Source: a virus. Taken from it: a stretch of 24,448 nt of DNA. Location of the stretch: the IMG/VR virus record IMGVR_UViG_3300010299_000060, positions 1 to 24,448 of that record; one strand, 5' to 3'. Under the pieces are notes generated by a model. It ran no database searches. It had not been told where the DNA came from and was given only the letters and a program-made list of their open reading frames with translations. Positions 12,898 through 24,448 of this stretch are shown here, one piece after another. The translations under genes and the position numbers were made by a program. Each line of letters starts with the position of its first letter. The first letter of the stretch is position 1.

Positions 12898-12930
12898 AAA
12901 CACTAAATGTATTAATGATTTTATTTGCAT

Positions 12931-15900
12931 ATGACAAAAATTAACTTGAATCAATCACCATATTTTGACGATTATAATGAGAATAAAAAATTCCATAGAA
13001 TATTATTTCGTCCTGGTAGAGCTGTTCAAGCTAGAGAATTAACTCAATTACAATCTTCATTACAAAAACAAATTGAAAGGTTTGGTAGTCATGTATTTGA
13101 GCAAGGCTCTCAAGTATTGCCTGGAAGTAAAGAGGGTGTTAGGTATGTAAATAATCACCATTTTATAAGAATTGCAATAGATGATAATTATACAACTACT
13201 GATACACAAATACAACAATATCTTTTAAACAAAACTTTAGAAAATGATTTAGGTGTCAAAGCTACAGTTATTGGATATAGGTTAGCAGATTCTAATGGTG
13301 AAGTAATTTTATATTTAAATTACATAGAAGGTGCTGGCCAACAACAAACATTTTTACGAGGTGATTCTCTACAAACAGTCGATTCAATAACAATTAGTGT
13401 TGTAGATGCAGATTATGCAACTGGCACAATATCTTCCGTTATAGTTGAAGAAGGTGTTTACTTTTTTGATGGAAATTTTATATTAGTAGATAAGCAAACA
13501 CATTTTATAATTCCGCAAAATGTTGAAAATCAATACGCATGGCTGGAAGCACCAACTGCAATAGTAGGTTTGCGAATAACTCAAAGTATAGTTACATTTG
13601 AAGAAGATGAATCATTATTAGATAATGCATTGGGAAGTCCAAATTATTCTGCTCCAGGAGCAGATAGATTAAGAATTTCTGCTGATCTAGAACAGTTAAA
13701 TGATTTAAATGCACAAGAAGCAGATTTTATACAATTATTAAAAGTAATAGATGGTGTTGTTCAAGCAAGAGTTGTTAAAACAGAATATTCAGTTTTAGAA
13801 GATACTTTAGCAAGAAGAACTTTTGATGAATCGGGTGACTATTCTGTAAGACCGTTTCAAATACAAGTTAAAGATTTTCTTAGAGATGCAACGAATAATG
13901 GTGCTCATAGTGAAAAAGAATTTTACTTTTTGACACAAGATGATGCATTAACTGCTTCCAAACAAATATTTAATGTTGATAATGATGATGGTCGTGCATA
14001 TCTGGACTATACTAGAAGTGCATGGTTGCCTGGAAAGGATTATGAAGATTTTATAAACTTATGTGAAAATAAACTATCAATTAAAATTGATCCTGGCAAA
14101 GCATATGTTAAAGGATATGAAATTGAAAAACTGGCAACAACTATTGTTGACTTTGATAAATCTAGAACAATAAGCTCTAGAAACAATAAATCAATTTCGA
14201 CACCATTGGGTACATTCTTTTATGTTACAAATATGTATGGCTCTGTGACACCATATGATACTGTAAATTTATATGCAGATATAGTTGAAGTAATTGATGG
14301 AACACCACCAACACCACCTAGTAATAAAATTGGAACTGCAAAAGTTCTATCACTAGATTTTTTTACAGGAACATCTGGATCATTAGATGGTACATACAGA
14401 TTATTTTTATTTGATATAAGAATTGATGATGGAAAGGATCTAGCTCAATTAAAATCAATGTACTCATCTAGTCCAACATTTACTTGTAATTGCTCTCTAG
14501 AAAATTTTAGACTCTCTGGAAGTGTTTCTAAATCAACAAATGCAAATGAAATAATTGGTGTTGGAACATCTTGGAAAAATGATGAGAACGAAAGATTGAG
14601 AGTAGGAGATTATATTCAAGTATCAAATGGATTGACTGCAAAAAAATATAGAGTCACTAACAATCCAGAAAATGATAATGTTTTATTAGTAGATCCAGAT
14701 CCTTTAAGTGATGGACATTCCTGGCAAGATGGTTCAACAATAAATTATATCTATTCAATAGCAAATTCAAACTCGGATAAAGTTGGTTTATTATACAATT
14801 TGCCAGATGAATTTGTATATTCTATATCAGATGTATCTTATACCAAAACTATTGTTGAAGAAAATTTAACACCTATAGCAGATGAATTGTTAATCAACAA
14901 CTACAATTTTGATACATTTTCTACTAAAAATTATAGCATTATAAACTTAGCTACTGGTGACTGGTTAGAGGTCGTTCCTTATGTGGCAGGAAATCCAATA
15001 GCAGGTAGAGCCGAAGTTGATGTTAATAACAATCAAGTAAATATTTACTTAAATAATGCAGATACTCTGGATGGGGCAACTTTTAATGTATATATTTCTG
15101 TGGAAGATACAACATCAACACCAAAAACAAAAAATTTAAATAAAGGATATTTTGATCTATCGGGTGAATATCAAAATACTGGAAGTCCAGGAAAAGGTTT
15201 TGTGGTTTCTGGTGGTAAAGATGTCTCTGAAGTATCTTTGAACATACCAGATGTTTTAAGAATAACAAGAGTTGTTGAATCTCCAGATTATAGTACAACT
15301 CCATCTTCAAATCAAACCTTGCCAACTGGACACAAAGATGTTACATCAAATTATATTTTAGATGATGGTCAAAGAGATCATTTTTATGATATTGCTAGTG
15401 TGAGTTTGCGTCCAGGATCTCCTAGACCAAATGGAAAAATAAGAGTAGAATTTGATTATTTTACTCATACTGGAAATGGAAATTATTTTTCGGTAGATTC
15501 ATACCCATTCAAAGGTAATGAACCAGAAATGGAATATGAAGAAATTCCAGATTATGTCGCATCAGATGGAACAAAGTATGATTTAACGAGTTGTATAGAT
15601 TTTAGATCTGTTGTTTCTTCTCCTGGAGGAATTGATACTGGCTTTAATATATCACCAGATTTACCAAATTCATCTTTTACATGTGACTATGAATTTTATC
15701 TTGCAAGAAAAGATAAACTATATCTAGATAAGAATGGAAGTTTTTATGTTAAGCAAGGAGTTCCAGATGTAAATCCTGAACTACCAGATGATCCTGATAC
15801 AGGCATGGTTATTTATGAATTAGATCTTTTGCCATATACTGCAAATAAAGACTCTCTATCTGTATCTTTTAGAGATAATAAAAGATATACAATGAGAGAT

Positions 15901-18900
15901 ATTGGAAAGTTAGAAAAGAGAATTAGTAATCTAGAATATTACACAACATTATCACTTTTAGAAACTGACACTAAAAATCTTGTCATAAAAGACGCATTAG
16001 GAAATGATAAATTTAAAAATGGATTTTTAGTAGATAACTTTACAACTTTCAGTTCTTGTGATTTGGGGAGTTTAGATTTTAAAGCATCTGTTGATGTAAT
16101 AAATCAAACAACTAGACCAATAATATTTCAAACTGTTGCCACATTATCGCAAGATACTTTAAGTAATGCTCAAAAAACAGGAGATCTATATACATTACCA
16201 TATACAGAGACGACTTTAGTTGAGCAAAAGTTAGCCAGTAAAGTTGTCAGTGTAAATCCATTTGAAATACCATCATATGTTGGAAATATAAAATTGACTC
16301 CTTGGAGTGATGAATGGAGAGATGTGGTAAATCAAGAGCCATTACTCGTAAAAGATCAATCACTATGGGAAGCAACACAACAAAGTTTTGGGCCTGCTGG
16401 AACAACTATTGATTATGCTAGTACAATAAACAACTGGACTGGGGTTTCTATTTCAGAGCCAACTCCAACTGGAGGAATAATACTTCAAGGTGCTGGTCAT
16501 GCGGTTTTAGAACAACTTCCATTAAAACAACGAAAAAGAGCTAAGAAAACTGGGTTTGTTATAGTACCAGAAGGTTATGCAAATGCTGGTCAAAGAGTTC
16601 CAGTAGGGAAAAAAAATTGGATCTCAGACGAATTAAGAAGCACTTTTACACTAACTGGTCAGCAAATAACAACAGAATTTACATCATCATTTGTTGATAG
16701 GGGCTGGTCTACTGGTACTAATTTGGGATCTAGAGTAATTTCTACCGATATGGCAGAATTTATTAGAGAAAGAGAAATACAGTTTTCTGCAAGGGGTTTA
16801 CTACCAAATACACAAGTATTTCCCTTTTTTGATGGTATAGATGTATCAGAGGATTGCAAGCCAGATTCGGGAAATTATGGCGATCAATTAGTATCAGATG
16901 GGTCTGGTAAAGTTTCTGGAACATTTAAAATTCCAAATTCTGAGGGAAAAAGATTTAAAACTGGAGATAGAATTTTTAGAATAACAACATCATCAATCAA
17001 TCAGAAGAATCCACCACCAACTTCTGCTGGAGAAGCAACTTATACAGCAAGAGGTTGGATTGATACACAACAAGAAACAATACTCTCGACAAGATTATTT
17101 GAGATTTCTAGAAATACTGTTACCAGTTCTACTGATATTTCTTTATTAGCTGGAGAAACCTTCTCTGCTGGTAGAGCCTGTCCACAAGATCCTATTGCAC
17201 AAAGTTTCTTCATATATGATGATGGTGGATGTTTTTTAACTAGTGTTGATTTATTCTTTTATAAAAAACCAACTGGAGACTTTCAACCAGATATTACACT
17301 TGAAATAAGAAGTGTTAGTGATACGGGCTTACCAACAAATAGAATATTACCATTTGGTAAGGTAATTAAAGGTGTTGAGGAAATAACAACCAATCATATA
17401 GATTTAGAAAGTAGGCAAATTACAATAACAGACTCTGAAGGAAATCTTCAAGATGGTGTTTTTGATCTTGGTGAAGATCCCACTGAACAGATGGTAGCCA
17501 CGACATTTACATTTGAATCTCCCATATATCTAGCACAAGATGAACAATATTGTTTTGTTTTAATTTCCGATAGTAAAGAATATAAAGTTTGGGTTGCACA
17601 ATTTGGCGAAGATGTAACATCTCGTGATGCTGAAGATTCTTTTAGGGAATTTGGAGAAGCTAATACTAGAATTGGAACAGATGAGACTATACAATCTTTG
17701 CCATATCTGCAAGGAACCTTTTTTAAGAGTGAAAATGGTTTAACTTGGACTGAAGATCAAACTGTTGATATTAAATTTAAATTAAATAAAGCACAATTTA
17801 ATATTTCAATTAATGGTGAAGTTGATTTTGTTAATGATGAGTTGCCATTAAGGGCATTAACATTAGATCCATTTGAAACTAAAGATGGTTCTAGTTTAGT
17901 TAGAGTGTTACATCCAAATCATGGACATACCAATCAATGTATGGTTGTTTTTACATCATCAGATGATTTAACTGCTGATTCATTAAATGGTATAGATCCA
18001 ACTGTATTACTAAGAGCAAGTGGACATAACATTGTACAAACGGAACTTGATCATTATGTAATAGATCTTCGTGATGACAACGAAGCTAACGAAGCTACAG
18101 CATCTGGAAGAGTTGGTGGAGGAAATATTGTTGCGAGTGAAAATATTAGATTTGAAGAATTGATGCTACTTACAACACCACTATTACCTCAAGGAACAGA
18201 TATTTCTTGGAGTATAGAAACTATTACTAGTAAGGGTGTTAATGATGTTTCTGGTAATGCATATGAGAAAGTAGATGCTAGAAATTTCTATCCAAATGAA
18301 AAGTTTCTTTTTGATGTGCCAATGCAAATCACATCGACATTAAATGCTAATGTAAATGGTGCATATCCTAATGGAACTGGAGAGCCGTCATTAAAAGTAA
18401 GAGCTATATTGAAAAGTACAAATGCAAACTTATCGCCTATTGTAGACGATTCTCGTTTTAGTGTATTTTTGGTAGATAATAGAATAGACAATCCAACAAG
18501 CTCTGCTGTTAATTCAGCTTTTGATGATTTGCAAATTTTAACAACAGATGATGCTCCTGCTGTAGGAAATTTGAGCAATAAAATATGGTTTACTAATTCA
18601 TCAAGTGAATTAACTGGAACAGTGTCTGCAAATGTTGATGAAAGAGCTTTAAATGGATCTGGAACTAAATTTTTATCTGAGGTATCTATTGGTGATGTAA
18701 TTATTATTGGCGATGGTTCAGATCAAAAAAGGGTTGTTACTGCGGTAAATGATGATGATGTTTTAGTTGTTGATGTTCCATTTAGTCTATCGATTGATGA
18801 AGCTACAGTTCATATCAATCCACCAAATGTAAAAATAAAAACTGCCGATCCAGATGTTGCAAGGCATTTAAGTTTGCTTGATGTTGGAAAGTATATAACG

Positions 18901-19503
18901 ATAGATGGTACACTTAATAGAGATATAACAGAAAGTGATTTGGTTAAAGTATTAAAAGTTGATTATACTCCAAACAATACTGTTTTAGATTCAGAATTGA
19001 GTTCAGCAAAACTATGTGAAATTACATTAGACCATAAAAACTTAACTGATCCTGGATTTGAAAATGAAAATAATTACACAATCGTTCAAAAAGATCGTTT
19101 TGTTGATGAGATTGCACCTTCTGGTGGTAGCTGTTCTGCAAAATATGTTTGTAAAAAATTGGTTGTATCAAGACCATCAAATTCATTAAAAGTATTATTT
19201 GATGCAAATAGACACTCTTCTTGTGAGTTGGAACTATATTATAAATTAGAGCCTGTAAATTCAGATAAAAATATAGATGATATTAATTGGGTTAAAGCAG
19301 ATTTTAATTTAGATGTAAATGGAACACTGCAAGATATAACACCAAATGCAAATGAATTTGAAGGTGAATATTCAGCATACGAAGTGACATTAAATGGGTT
19401 ACCTAGTTTTGTTGGTGCTCAAACAAAAATTGTAATGAGAGGTGGAAATCCAGCAAGAGTTCCAAAAGTTAAAAACTTTAGAATGATTATTTTGGATGAA
19501 TAG
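12931..19503 (+). CDS. Giant DUF4815-family virion structural protein (2190 aa)
   Basis: Residues 21-65 (FHRILFRPGRAVQARELTQL, then QIERFGSHVFEQGSQVLPG) are the hallmark of DUF4815, found in large structural proteins of T4-like cyanophages and similar phages. Other conserved blocks: KLEKRISNLEYYTTLSLLE at 993-1011, and AQSFFIYDDGGCFLTSVDLF near 1423-1442. Two beta modules of the form G-x-GT-x-[FW]...GD-x-I occur at about 530-600 and 1890-1960, suggesting internal duplication. Location after gp8, where T4 has genes 9-11, suggests a peripheral baseplate or fiber-attachment role; that is inference. A TTG at 12925 adds two residues, but the ATG at 12931 gives the family-like start. It takes up over a quarter of the window and has its own late promoter. 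Confidence 0.9.
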   Translation: MTKINLNQSPYFDDYNENKKFHRILFRPGRAVQARELTQLQSSLQKQIERFGSHVFEQGSQVLPGSKEGVRYVNNHHFIRIAIDDNYTTTDTQIQQYLLNKTLENDLGVKATVIGYRLADSNGEVILYLNYIEGAGQQQTFLRGDSLQTVDSITISVVDADYATGTISSVIVEEGVYFFDGNFILVDKQTHFIIPQNVENQYAWLEAPTAIVGLRITQSIVTFEEDESLLDNALGSPNYSAPGADRLRISADLEQLNDLNAQEADFIQLLKVIDGVVQARVVKTEYSVLEDTLARRTFDESGDYSVRPFQIQVKDFLRDATNNGAHSEKEFYFLTQDDALTASKQIFNVDNDDGRAYLDYTRSAWLPGKDYEDFINLCENKLSIKIDPGKAYVKGYEIEKLATTIVDFDKSRTISSRNNKSISTPLGTFFYVTNMYGSVTPYDTVNLYADIVEVIDGTPPTPPSNKIGTAKVLSLDFFTGTSGSLDGTYRLFLFDIRIDDGKDLAQLKSMYSSSPTFTCNCSLENFRLSGSVSKSTNANEIIGVGTSWKNDENERLRVGDYIQVSNGLTAKKYRVTNNPENDNVLLVDPDPLSDGHSWQDGSTINYIYSIANSNSDKVGLLYNLPDEFVYSISDVSYTKTIVEENLTPIADELLINNYNFDTFSTKNYSIINLATGDWLEVVPYVAGNPIAGRAEVDVNNNQVNIYLNNADTLDGATFNVYISVEDTTSTPKTKNLNKGYFDLSGEYQNTGSPGKGFVVSGGKDVSEVSLNIPDVLRITRVVESPDYSTTPSSNQTLPTGHKDVTSNYILDDGQRDHFYDIASVSLRPGSPRPNGKIRVEFDYFTHTGNGNYFSVDSYPFKGNEPEMEYEEIPDYVASDGTKYDLTSCIDFRSVVSSPGGIDTGFNISPDLPNSSFTCDYEFYLARKDKLYLDKNGSFYVKQGVPDVNPELPDDPDTGMVIYELDLLPYTANKDSLSVSFRDNKRYTMRDIGKLEKRISNLEYYTTLSLLETDTKNLVIKDALGNDKFKNGFLVDNFTTFSSCDLGSLDFKASVDVINQTTRPIIFQTVATLSQDTLSNAQKTGDLYTLPYTETTLVEQKLASKVVSVNPFEIPSYVGNIKLTPWSDEWRDVVNQEPLLVKDQSLWEATQQSFGPAGTTIDYASTINNWTGVSISEPTPTGGIILQGAGHAVLEQLPLKQRKRAKKTGFVIVPEGYANAGQRVPVGKKNWISDELRSTFTLTGQQITTEFTSSFVDRGWSTGTNLGSRVISTDMAEFIREREIQFSARGLLPNTQVFPFFDGIDVSEDCKPDSGNYGDQLVSDGSGKVSGTFKIPNSEGKRFKTGDRIFRITTSSINQKNPPPTSAGEATYTARGWIDTQQETILSTRLFEISRNTVTSSTDISLLAGETFSAGRACPQDPIAQSFFIYDDGGCFLTSVDLFFYKKPTGDFQPDITLEIRSVSDTGLPTNRILPFGKVIKGVEEITTNHIDLESRQITITDSEGNLQDGVFDLGEDPTEQMVATTFTFESPIYLAQDEQYCFVLISDSKEYKVWVAQFGEDVTSRDAEDSFREFGEANTRIGTDETIQSLPYLQGTFFKSENGLTWTEDQTVDIKFKLNKAQFNISINGEVDFVNDELPLRALTLDPFETKDGSSLVRVLHPNHGHTNQCMVVFTSSDDLTADSLNGIDPTVLLRASGHNIVQTELDHYVIDLRDDNEANEATASGRVGGGNIVASENIRFEELMLLTTPLLPQGTDISWSIETITSKGVNDVSGNAYEKVDARNFYPNEKFLFDVPMQITSTLNANVNGAYPNGTGEPSLKVRAILKSTNANLSPIVDDSRFSVFLVDNRIDNPTSSAVNSAFDDLQILTTDDAPAVGNLSNKIWFTNSSSELTGTVSANVDERALNGSGTKFLSEVSIGDVIIIGDGSDQKRVVTAVNDDDVLVVDVPFSLSIDEATVHINPPNVKIKTADPDVARHLSLLDVGKYITIDGTLNRDITESDLVKVLKVDYTPNNTVLDSELSSAKLCEITLDHKNLTDPGFENENNYTIVQKDRFVDEIAPSGGSCSAKYVCKKLVVSRPSNSLKVLFDANRHSSCELELYYKLEPVNSDKNIDDINWVKADFNLDVNGTLQDITPNANEFEGEYSAYEVTLNGLPSFVGAQTKIVMRGGNPARVPKVKNFRMIILDE

Positions 19504-20332: not shown

Positions 20333-22747
20333 ATGGCTTACATAGGAAATGCTAGAACATTATTGATTGTCGGAACAAATGTTAGAGACGATCTAGTGCC
20401 AGGATATTCAGATCCACTACAAACTACTGGCCCATTTGATAAAACTTCTTTTCAATTAAGTCAAGAAGTGCCAGGAGGTCACGAACTAAATGTATCTGTA
20501 TTCAGACAAAAATATGTTATAGAAGAATTAATAGAAGATACAATAGAAGTAGATATAGTTTCTGATCCCACATCTTTAAAAATTATTTCTTCTGATACTT
20601 CTATAGCAAGTTCTTTATCTTTAGCACAAGAAAATGAAAATCTTATAATAAATGGTTCATCAAATTCCAATAATAATAGATCATTCAAAATATTAGATGT
20701 CATTTATAATGGAATAACTATAGAAATAATTTTACAAAAATTAGGAGGAGAAACTTCCACTACTGGAGAAACTCTTTCATTAAATTTAGGTAAAGTTGGT
20801 TTTTGGGAAATTCTAGAACCAGAAATAGATTATATAATCTCTGGTATAAATTCTCAATACAATAGATTAATTGAATTAACAGAAGCACCACAATTAAATG
20901 ATAAAGTTTATGTTGTTCATAAAGGTGATGCAACATATAATTTTGTTCCATCACCATATTCTGTTGGCCCAGATCAATTACAAGAAAATTTAAGAAACTT
21001 TGTAACAGATAGATTTACTGCATCTAGTGATGACACATTTGAATTGTCACAAGATGCTGTTAGTTCATCATCTATTGAAGTTTATGTTGATGGTGTTTGG
21101 AAGGAAGGTAGAGATTCTGGAGAAATTAATCCAGACTCAGATTGGGAACTATCTTCAGATGGAACTCAAATAGTTTTTGATAATGTGATAAGTTCTGGAA
21201 GAGTTGTAATAAAACATTTAGGATTTTCTACAATATCTAGAAGGTCTGCATTATCTCCTGGACAAGCTGGAAGTGTTGCAGATGGATCTATTACAGCACC
21301 AAAAATTGCTAATGGTGCTGTATTATCAGATAAATTGGGAGATGGTTCGGTAACTACAAGTAAGATTTCTAATAATTCAGTAAATGGAGCAAAAATATTA
21401 TTAAATAATAATGAAAATTTGAGGGGGAAAAAATTAGATAATACAGATACTGCTTTAATAAAAGTTAATTCTGATGATTCTACACACATAAGTTCTGTGG
21501 GGAAAATTGTTGCTAAAGTAGATGGTGTTGAAAAAATTAATATAACATCTACAGAAGTAGAACCAAGTAGTACAGATATTATATCTTTAGGAACATCTTC
21601 AAAAAAATTTAAAGATTTGCATATATCTGGCTCTGCAACAACTGGTGATTTATTAGTAAATGGTAATATAACTGTTACTGGTACTGTAGATAGTGGTGAC
21701 ATTTCAGACATGAAAACTGAGTTGCAAGATTTGAGAGATGAGATAGCTTTAATGCATCCAGTTGGTAGTATATCATTATGGGTATCTAACACATTACCAG
21801 ATGCAACTAATTGGAAAATTTGTGATGGCTCTGCTATATCTAGAACTACTTATGCAACTTTATTTGCATTAATTGGCACTACATTTGGATCTGGAGATGG
21901 ACATTCAACATTTAATATTCCAGATTTGAGAGGAAGGTCTGCTATAGGTAAAAAGAGCACATCAAGTATTGGAAGTAGTGATGGTCTTACAGAGGTTAAT
22001 AGAAATCACTCACATACTCATAGTGGAGCTCCCCACACACATGATTTGAGTAATCATACTCATGTAGTAAAAAAACATAATCATGAAATTGATCAAGATG
22101 CTGGTAGCACAGAAACATTAAATATTACTTCTTCTGGTCAACATAATACAACTATAGATATTTCACATGGTCATACAGCATCTAGTGGTAAATCTGATAG
22201 TAACATATCTATAAATGATGACGGCCATAGTCATTCAATTACAGATAATGGACATGATCACGGGGGGTCTACAGTATCTGCAAATACTAGATTATGGATC
22301 AGATCAAATGAAGCATCAAATTCTAGTAATAATGTAAGTAGATTTAATGATGCAACTGCTCTATCTTCTGATGGAACAGGAACCAGTCCTCGTGTTAAAA
22401 AAACAAGTGCAGAATCACATTCTCATACAATTAATAGTAGCACCACTGGAATTTCAATTAATTCTAATACTGCTGGAATTTCCCTTACAGATTCAAAGCA
22501 TAGTCATAATATAACAGTAAGTTCTTTATCTTCAAGTAAAACCGATACTGGCGGACAACATATTCATAGCTCTTCTAGCATAGTTGGAAAATTGGGGAAA
22601 ATAACTGATGGTGGAGTATCTGGAGACGTAGATCAAGATTCTGGCACACCAAGCAACAATAATACTGGGTCTGCTTCATATAGTGGAAATAGTGGATCTA
22701 CAACAATTCCACATTTAACATTAAATTATATAATAAAGGTGAGTTAG
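20333..22747 (+). CDS. Collar-domain tail fiber with histidine-rich tip
   Basis: 804 residues. The N-terminus (MAYIGNARTLLIVGTNVRDD, later SFQLSQEVPGGHELNVSVFRQK split around 39-60) is a form shared by fiber proteins of marine T4-like phages and probably the virion-attachment end. Residues 232-298 form a beta module also present in the next gene. Residues 317-355 are short 'DGSITAPKI/DGSVTTSKI' tail repeats. Residues 475-540 are a Phage Tail Collar domain (PVGSISLWVS, WKICDGSAISRTTYATLFALIG, FNIPDLRGRSAIGK, allowing for breaks), as in T4 gp12. From 559 to 745 there are eleven HxH pairs, four exactly seven residues apart. The end, IPHLTLNYIIKVS, is typical of collar proteins. Likely a host-recognition fiber. 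Confidence 0.88.
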   Translation: MAYIGNARTLLIVGTNVRDDLVPGYSDPLQTTGPFDKTSFQLSQEVPGGHELNVSVFRQKYVIEELIEDTIEVDIVSDPTSLKIISSDTSIASSLSLAQENENLIINGSSNSNNNRSFKILDVIYNGITIEIILQKLGGETSTTGETLSLNLGKVGFWEILEPEIDYIISGINSQYNRLIELTEAPQLNDKVYVVHKGDATYNFVPSPYSVGPDQLQENLRNFVTDRFTASSDDTFELSQDAVSSSSIEVYVDGVWKEGRDSGEINPDSDWELSSDGTQIVFDNVISSGRVVIKHLGFSTISRRSALSPGQAGSVADGSITAPKIANGAVLSDKLGDGSVTTSKISNNSVNGAKILLNNNENLRGKKLDNTDTALIKVNSDDSTHISSVGKIVAKVDGVEKINITSTEVEPSSTDIISLGTSSKKFKDLHISGSATTGDLLVNGNITVTGTVDSGDISDMKTELQDLRDEIALMHPVGSISLWVSNTLPDATNWKICDGSAISRTTYATLFALIGTTFGSGDGHSTFNIPDLRGRSAIGKKSTSSIGSSDGLTEVNRNHSHTHSGAPHTHDLSNHTHVVKKHNHEIDQDAGSTETLNITSSGQHNTTIDISHGHTASSGKSDSNISINDDGHSHSITDNGHDHGGSTVSANTRLWIRSNEASNSSNNVSRFNDATALSSDGTGTSPRVKKTSAESHSHTINSSTTGISINSNTAGISLTDSKHSHNITVSSLSSSKTDTGGQHIHSSSSIVGKLGKITDGGVSGDVDQDSGTPSNNNTGSASYSGNSGSTTIPHLTLNYIIKVS

Positions 22748-23683
22748 ATGGGAAAATATATTGGAAGAAATATACCATATGGTCTTTTTGAGAGTCAAGA
22801 TTTATCATCTGATGCTGATGGAACAAAAACTATATTTCCATTAATTTATAATGTTCCTAATTCTGCTTCTATATTGGTAATATATTCTGGAAGTGTTTTA
22901 CAACCAGTAGTAGACTACACCATCACAGAAGCTGGCTCTAAAGTTCAGTTTAATGATGCACCAGATTCTGGACTTAGTTTACATATATTATATCTTGGTA
23001 GAGAACTACTAGTTCCATCAACAATAGGAAATTCACCATTATTAGTTCAAATTGAAGCTGACGGCATAGAATCTGAATATGAGATCACCACCACACTAAC
23101 TTTAACACATCATGGTCTTATAATCTTTAAAAATGGTGTTCAGCAAAGACATGATCATGATTTTTCAATAACTGAAACAAATAAAGTTTCATTTATTCCA
23201 CCCCCATCTAATGGCGATAAGTTAGATTTTTATATTGTTGGTGCTGAAAGGTCTGATCTAGTAACTGTTGGTGAAGGAACTATTACAACTTCCAAATTAG
23301 ATGATGGTGCAGTGACTCCAGATAAAATGAATCTGAGTTTTAGCACATATAGTCCAACTGTAACTACATTTGAGAGCATGGTATCTAGTACAATAGTAGA
23401 AGAAGCTGACTACCAAGAATTCAATACCCATGTGAAAGCTAGAATAAAGATACGAACTACTTTGTCTGGAACAGAAGATAATAAAATTCGTGTTACACTA
23501 CCAATAAATAATGATGGAAGTGCTTTTATATCATCATCTGCAACAATAGTTTCAGATGAAAGCATAGAAAGTGGTATTGTGAGGTGGGGATCTGACAATA
23601 GTGTAGATATTTATCGACAATTTGGGGTAAATTATACATTAGATACTCATACAATAGAAATTTCTGTGGAATACAAAAAATAA
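22748..23683 (+). CDS. Small tail-fiber-like protein with duplicated beta module
   Basis: 311 residues. Residues 22-84 and 104-166 look like two copies of one beta module (strand, 'vYSGSVLQPVVDYTI', 'GSKVQFNDAP', 'LHILYLG' in the first; 'IFKNGVQQRHDHDFSI', 'NKVSFIPPP', 'LDFYIVG' in the second), related to residues 232-298 of the upstream fiber. Residues 177-193 read GTITTSKLDDGAVTPDK, the short tail repeat seen in phage fibers. The C-terminal 110 residues are a beta domain I do not recognise and may be a receptor-binding or tip domain. The ATG directly follows the upstream stop, with AAAGGTGAG just before it. Probably part of the same fiber or an accessory fiber. Confidence 0.82.
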   Translation: MGKYIGRNIPYGLFESQDLSSDADGTKTIFPLIYNVPNSASILVIYSGSVLQPVVDYTITEAGSKVQFNDAPDSGLSLHILYLGRELLVPSTIGNSPLLVQIEADGIESEYEITTTLTLTHHGLIIFKNGVQQRHDHDFSITETNKVSFIPPPSNGDKLDFYIVGAERSDLVTVGEGTITTSKLDDGAVTPDKMNLSFSTYSPTVTTFESMVSSTIVEEADYQEFNTHVKARIKIRTTLSGTEDNKIRVTLPINNDGSAFISSSATIVSDESIESGIVRWGSDNSVDIYRQFGVNYTLDTHTIEISVEYKK

Positions 23684-23940: not shown

Positions 23941-24448
23941 ATGGCTATAACCAAAATTCGTGGAACCTCACAAATTAAAGGTGGTTCGATTACCAATGCA
24001 GAAATTTCTGCAAGTGCTGGTATTGAACTAAGTAAACTCGCAGAAGGTGCAGAACTCATTAAACGTGACGGATCAGTAGCATTCACTGGTAATGTTGACA
24101 TGGGAAGCAACAAGGTAACTAATGTTGCTGACGGTGTAAATGCTGGAGACGTAGCAAATAAAGGTCAATTAGATGCTGAAGCAAGTGCTCGTGCGGCTGC
24201 TGACGCAACCCTTCAAGCTAATATCGATGCTGAAGCTGTAGCTCGTGCGGCTGCTGATTCTGCATTAGATGTAAGAATGACAACTGCTGAAGCTGATATT
24301 GATGCTTTAGAAGTTGCTGTTGCTGATGAAGCTACTGCTCGTGCGGCTGCTGACGCAACCCTTCAAGCTAATATCGATGCTGAAGCTGTAGCTCGTGCGG
24401 CTGCTGATTCTGCATTAGATGTAAGAATGACAACTGCTGAAGCTGATA
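23941..24448 (+). CDS. Repeat-rich tail fiber protein, 5' part (runs off the window)
   Basis: 169 codons are visible with no stop before the window edge. TAAGGA at 23927-23932, eight bases before the ATG, is a strong ribosome site. Residues 1-40 (GTSQIKGGSITNAEISASAG) match the short tail repeats of phage fibers. Residues 53-78 (MGSNKVTNVADGVNAGDVA, then KGQLD) are a common fiber motif that precedes the shaft. From residue 81 on, ARAAAD units recur in a coiled-coil or trimeric-shaft pattern, with a 50-residue period. Codon use differs from the neighbours: six of eight Arg codons are CGT and Ala is mostly GCT, against AGA-rich genes upstream. Probably a major tail fiber with high expression; transfer is an alternative reason for the codon shift. 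Confidence 0.88.
   Translation, partial: MAITKIRGTSQIKGGSITNAEISASAGIELSKLAEGAELIKRDGSVAFTGNVDMGSNKVTNVADGVNAGDVANKGQLDAEASARAAADATLQANIDAEAVARAAADSALDVRMTTAEADIDALEVAVADEATARAAADATLQANIDAEAVARAAADSALDVRMTTAEAD
24187..24448 (+). repeat. Perfect direct repeat, 150-base period, in the fiber gene
   Basis: Bases 24187-24298 and 24337-24448 are identical over all 112 bases that can be compared before the window ends. The period is 150 bases, 50 codons. A shorter unit coding ARAAAD (GCTCGTGCGGCTGCTGA) occurs at 24187, 24241, 24337 and 24391. Confidence 0.95.

Follow-up and report, generated by a model that had tools for sequence, protein, structure and literature searches.

In the fibres of R1 and R2 pyocins, the HxH motif builds an octahedral iron site in which the metal was identified by X-ray fluorescence, and the same motif occurs in T4 gp37, P2 gpV and phi92 (PMC6116203). 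Six histidines, two from each of three chains, surround the axial ion in such sites. Iron is not a certain assignment for such sites, however, since reconstituted gp12, the short tail fibre of T4, had zinc at its HxH site (PMC6116203). These metals have been suggested to set the folding register and to provide stiffness, the folding hypothesis being as yet without experimental support according to its authors (PMC6116203). A T4 review notes the similarity of gp37 and gp12 over the collar (PMC3004832). Beyond T4, the long tail fibre of Anabaena phage A-1(L) has been described as a receptor-binding protein with a gp37-like arm domain (PMC10966104), and a model of V22 gp23 shows a tip resembling that of the T4 LTF, in which there are three HxH sites (PMC10579305).

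Here we analysed a viral stretch of 24,448 bases (the window) carrying a run of T4-type baseplate genes (gp5 OB-domain, gp25, gp6, a gp8-like wedge and a 2192-aa DUF4815 protein) followed by fibres. The gp6 homologue is nearest to that of pelagiphage HTVC008M (37%) and then to those of the Melnitz methylophages (36%), both filed under Kyanoviridae. The 2192-aa structural protein (12925-19503) belongs to PF16075 and phrog_358. Downstream of it, on the plus strand at 20333-22747, lies a collar-type tail fibre gene of 804 aa, with matches in PHROGs to tail protein, tail fibre and tail collar protein and with whole-length relatives at two loci (L001/L002). We consider it very likely, on the strength of the sequence comparisons described below, that this protein serves a marine T4-like myovirus as its receptor-binding tail fibre and that its C-terminal 330 residues form a collar of the gp37/gp12 type followed by a metal-pinned needle. 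Two further probable fibre genes follow it. The adjacent one (22748-23683, 311 aa) has an MGKYIGR-type N-terminus and a weak, below cut-off match to the N-terminal domain of the T7 tail fibre (E=0.005), and a similar gene stands at the same place in L001/L002. The last is an ORF truncated by the window end (23941-24447), with near-identical repeats DATLQANIDAEAVARAADSALDVRMTTAEAD, and is probably another fibre shaft.

The N-terminal part of the 804-aa fibre (about residues 1-310, 20333-21262, plus strand) is probably the virion-attachment region. In fact, residues 162-258 match a 272-aa Melnitz methylophage fibre (L575:5809-6627) at 33% identity, over the N-terminal part only. That fibre, which has a similar gene order and position, contains no HxH at all; therefore the collar and needle tip looks like a lineage-variable module, gained or lost between lineages. 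Residues 311-350 carry repeats of the type DGSITAPKIANGAV...DGSVTTSKISNNSV. The sole Pfam domain of the protein is the Collar domain (PF07484, residues 478-536, 21764-21940, plus strand; E=1.5e-19, 70 bits against a cut-off of 24), which stands directly ahead of the HxH array.

Searched as a single sequence against the PDB, the fibre matched the A-1(L) long tail fibre (8KEC, E=3e-9) and T4 gp12 (1OCY, 1.6e-5). A profile of five tips, searched with hmmsearch, recovered 8kec_A (3.4e-13), 1ocy_A (4.1e-9) and also T4 gp37 (2xgf_A, 1.1e-5), the gp37 match spanning the collar and early needle only and thus falling short of the whole HxH array. In hhalign comparisons with gp37 and with the fibres of A-1(L) and Synechococcus phage S-T4, the collars aligned, as did the early needle of gp37, and the register of the HxH array was untrustworthy; a profile search based on A-1(L) was weak because that fibre aligned poorly beyond the collar. 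The initial annotation had pictured a needle fused to a gp12-like collar. The collar-then-needle layout is indeed present, but it is nothing special: residues 816-863 of T4 gp37 also match PF07484, so a collar followed by an HxH needle is the layout of gp37 itself and no new fusion.

A script scan placed HxH starts at residues 559, 561, 568, 575, 582, 612, 632, 641, 696, 723 and 743, a region running from base 22007, where residue 559 begins, to base 22567, where residue 745 finishes. Every position listed in the initial annotation is thus occupied. However, its count of eleven pairs comes down to ten distinct ones at most, because residues 559-563 read HSHTH, His561 being counted both in the 559 pair and in the 561 pair. 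All features of the array lie on the plus strand. Next to the collar, the heptad block HSHTHSGAPHTHDLSNHTHVVKKHNH (residues 559-584, 22007-22084) contains the pairs at 561, 568, 575 and 582, which a motif scan confirmed to be exactly seven residues apart, as well as the overlapping 559. A conserved block, HNTTIDISHGHTA (residues 604-616, 22142-22180), carries the pair at 612; it also includes a lone conserved histidine, His604, that belongs to no HxH pair. The pairs at 632 and 641 fall in a nine-residue unit of the form HxHxIxDxGHxH, HSHSITDNGHDH (22226-22261). Beyond a histidine-free variable segment (residues 645-695, 22265-22417), the pairs at 696, 723 and 743 mark a putative returning strand (22418-22567). 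A nine-residue repeat, INSSTTGIS INSNTAGIS, lies in this last region at 22418-22507, with INTSSTGIS IQSASTGLT as its A-1(L) counterpart and with the same period as the nine-residue HxH units. The protein closes with TIPHLTLNYIIKVS; its C-terminal strand, IPHLTLNYIIKVS (residues 792-804, 22706-22744), resembles the ends of gp37 (NIAFNYIVRLA) and gp12 (SLNYIIKV). We had also considered mirrored levels, given the equal 20-residue spacing of 612/632 and 723/743, and dropped the idea because the relatives differ (27 versus 21 residues in L001, 40 versus 21 in L248).

Chance does not produce such an array from this composition: 10,000 shuffles of the 187-aa region, which contains 22 histidines, averaged 2.5 HxH and did not exceed 8, and four heptad-spaced pairs appeared in none of 200,000 shuffles. 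No tandem repeat was found at the DNA level in the array, which is therefore not a recent DNA-level duplication.

Besides the full-length relatives L001/L002 (47% identity in the best segment), we found diverged ones at L244, L245-L247 and L248, with best-segment identities of 34-44%, and conservation was counted in an alignment of five diverged tips whose identity over the tip is 39-50%. In this alignment 18 of the 21 pair histidines are invariant, as opposed to 35 of the 243 remaining residues (Fisher p=1.7e-11), the exceptions being residue 559 and the pair at 696. Nine of the ten pairs are kept, only the 561 pair surviving from 559/561, and 723 and 743 are invariant. A two-sequence comparison pointed the same way, with 20/21 pair histidines matching against 101/243 other residues. 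The 7-7-7 spacing is preserved in every relative examined (L001, L244, L245 and L248), and the longest near-invariant stretch of the five tips is HxTxIDISHGHxA, in the block at 604-616. Segment 645-695 behaves in the opposite way: its identity is the lowest (0.17 versus 0.33-0.49 elsewhere) and its gap fraction the highest (0.29), and it coincides with the long histidine-free gap between the two HxH groups. We therefore have a clean conservation case, in which the pairs are retained and the putative tip varies. The initial annotation had extended the logic of the gp37 tip to this fibre, reasoning that relatives losing the pairs would speak against it; the relatives keep them and, at the level of sequence, the extension holds, with profile matches to gp37, gp12 and A-1(L) and with pair histidines far above their neighbours in conservation.

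To explain these observations we propose that three intertwined chains form the needle. Each chain would exit the collar, run outward through the HxH-rich segment 559-643, turn through residues 645-695 or thereabouts and come back through 696-745, to end as a strand at the collar (792-804). Such a path would suit the variable histidine-free segment between the two HxH groups and the LNYIIKVS end. The segment between the outgoing and returning strands is probably the tip that touches the host. At each HxH level, six histidines contributed by the three chains would point inward and surround one axial metal ion, most likely Fe(II). Up to ten such ions per trimer may set the folding register and stiffen the thin needle. 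The build would thus consist of a fixed heptad block beside the collar, nine-residue units (632-641) that vary in number, a tip and a returning strand; in fact, extra copies of the HxHxIxDxGHxH unit are present in L245 and L248.

Could the needle be of the gp37 type with most of its pairs empty, or filled by a different metal, for instance zinc, so that the register is set just by the stacking of histidines? The zinc held by the reconstituted gp12 site speaks for this, as does the A-1(L) paper, whose searched text mentions neither metal nor histidine despite five HxH pairs in that fibre. Nevertheless, both histidines of nine pairs are strictly conserved in the five tips and the pyocin fibres were seen to contain iron, and we regard mostly empty or zinc-filled levels as unlikely.

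We give still less credit to a surface role, in which the pairs would face outward or sit in loose loops as a binding or metal-scavenging array, directed for example at iron-uptake receptors in the manner of a "Ferrojan horse". The window does belong to a marine-type T4-like virus, and the authors of the study on Alteromonas phage R22Y discuss the idea that siderophore receptors recognise HxH iron in tail fibres (PMC11705849). In the solved homologues, however, the HxH sites lie buried along the axis (PMC6116203), and in our fibre conservation is highest at the pairs, the likely host-facing segment being the variable one, the reverse of what a surface recognition patch would look like. A surface array is thus very improbable.

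The term "histidine zipper" in the initial annotation suggested a third possibility, a trimeric alpha-helical coiled coil in the heptad block, which the exact seven-residue spacing across four pairs would seem to invite. Yet Gly, Pro, Asn and Thr abound in the block, HTHSGAPHTHDLSNHTH, and homologous arrays run at spacings of 9, 10, 13 or 14. The homologous needles, as known from the gp37 and gp12 structures, are beta structure. An AlphaFold2 monomer of residues 471-804, computed with the five-tip alignment, had no helix in 559-584, in a model that is itself unreliable (mean pLDDT 35.7, pTM 0.15). Nothing points to a coiled coil, which we judge highly implausible, and the zipper image is best abandoned. 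Finally, although the region is rich in histidine, glycine and serine, that it is low-complexity sequence with no structural role has next to no probability, being contradicted by the conservation of the pair histidines (18/21 invariant versus 35/243 for the rest), by an unchanged register in relatives at 39-50% identity and by the lack of a DNA tandem repeat.

With the metal-pinned needle as the preferred reading, how common is such an array, and which spacings does it use? In a sample of 82 complete proteins, picked through a DNA motif of the collar irrespective of their histidines, 78 have at least one HxH after the collar motif and only three (the top 4%) have ten or more. The commonest spacings in this sample are 9 (33 cases), 12 (16) and 7 (14), and 8 is absent. 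The initial annotation had called the needle unusually long, which does not stand: close relatives carry 10-14 HxH (13 in L001, 14 in L245) and S-T4 carries 17, A-1(L) having five. The window array is long, yet neither exceptional nor record-setting.

We also scanned viral contigs for four equally spaced pairs, the sequences being non-independent and later denominators including some loci from earlier scans. Among the matches listed, collar-containing ORFs made up 29/119 at spacing 7, 0/134 at spacing 8, 41/128 at spacing 9 and 9/134 at spacing 10; the matches listed at spacings 8 and 10 were mostly histidine-rich low-complexity or out-of-frame sequence. This preference for 7 and 9, with less 10 and no 8 among the matches listed, appears both in the collar sample and in the targeted scans, and comes from loci L004-L123, L124-L237, L274-L393 and L394-L574. 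We envision, tentatively and with slightly less than even confidence, that only a few fixed repeat units are used behind collars and that the heptad block would count as a separate kind of metal-pinned repeat, having a metal-metal distance of its own and joined to a variable number of nine-residue units. A preference for 7 and 9 but not 8 would then offer a testable rule for the packing of three chains around axial metals. It might be the sole, modest new point of this work, perhaps of specialist interest.

Placed beside the described fibres, the tip appears as a variation on a shared plan. T4 gp37 has the same Collar, HxH-rich needle, histidine-poor gap between HxH groups and C-terminus of the NYIxR/K type. 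Its seven HxH after the collar (883, 915, 929, 966, 980, 989 and 998) are spaced by 32, 14, 37, 14, 9 and 9 residues, whereas our fibre has ten pairs and a heptad block; the largest gap of gp37 (929-966) separates two HxH groups, as does that of the window fibre. We also count as a difference the dependence of gp37 on a separate chaperone, gp38 (PMC3004832). The A-1(L) long tail fibre gp34 (8KEC), the best PDB match, shares the collar, a uniform HxH array, the HxHxIxDxGHxH unit and TGISI repeats beyond the array, but its five HxH are spaced by nine residues, it lacks a heptad block and its arm is shorter (224 residues). With gp12 (1OCY) the fibre shares the Collar domain and a C-terminal end, LNYIIKV in gp12, whose metal site is formed by one HxH motif and not by an array (PMC6116203). 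The Synechococcus phage S-T4 fibre (MH412654), from another marine myovirus, likewise has a collar and then a long array, although its 17 HxH are mostly at spacing 10 and fall into two runs parted by a 37-residue gap. The fibre of R22Y, also a marine phage, has multiple HxH proposed to hold iron (PMC11705849), but it is a schitovirus fibre with six HxH in its N-terminal part, several at a spacing of about 22. To this group of HxH needles the fibre would add up to ten putative metal sites per trimer, which is relevant to phage-bound iron in seawater. In fact, the tip is another case of a known and common gp37-type design, and the known picture of these fibres is unchanged by it.
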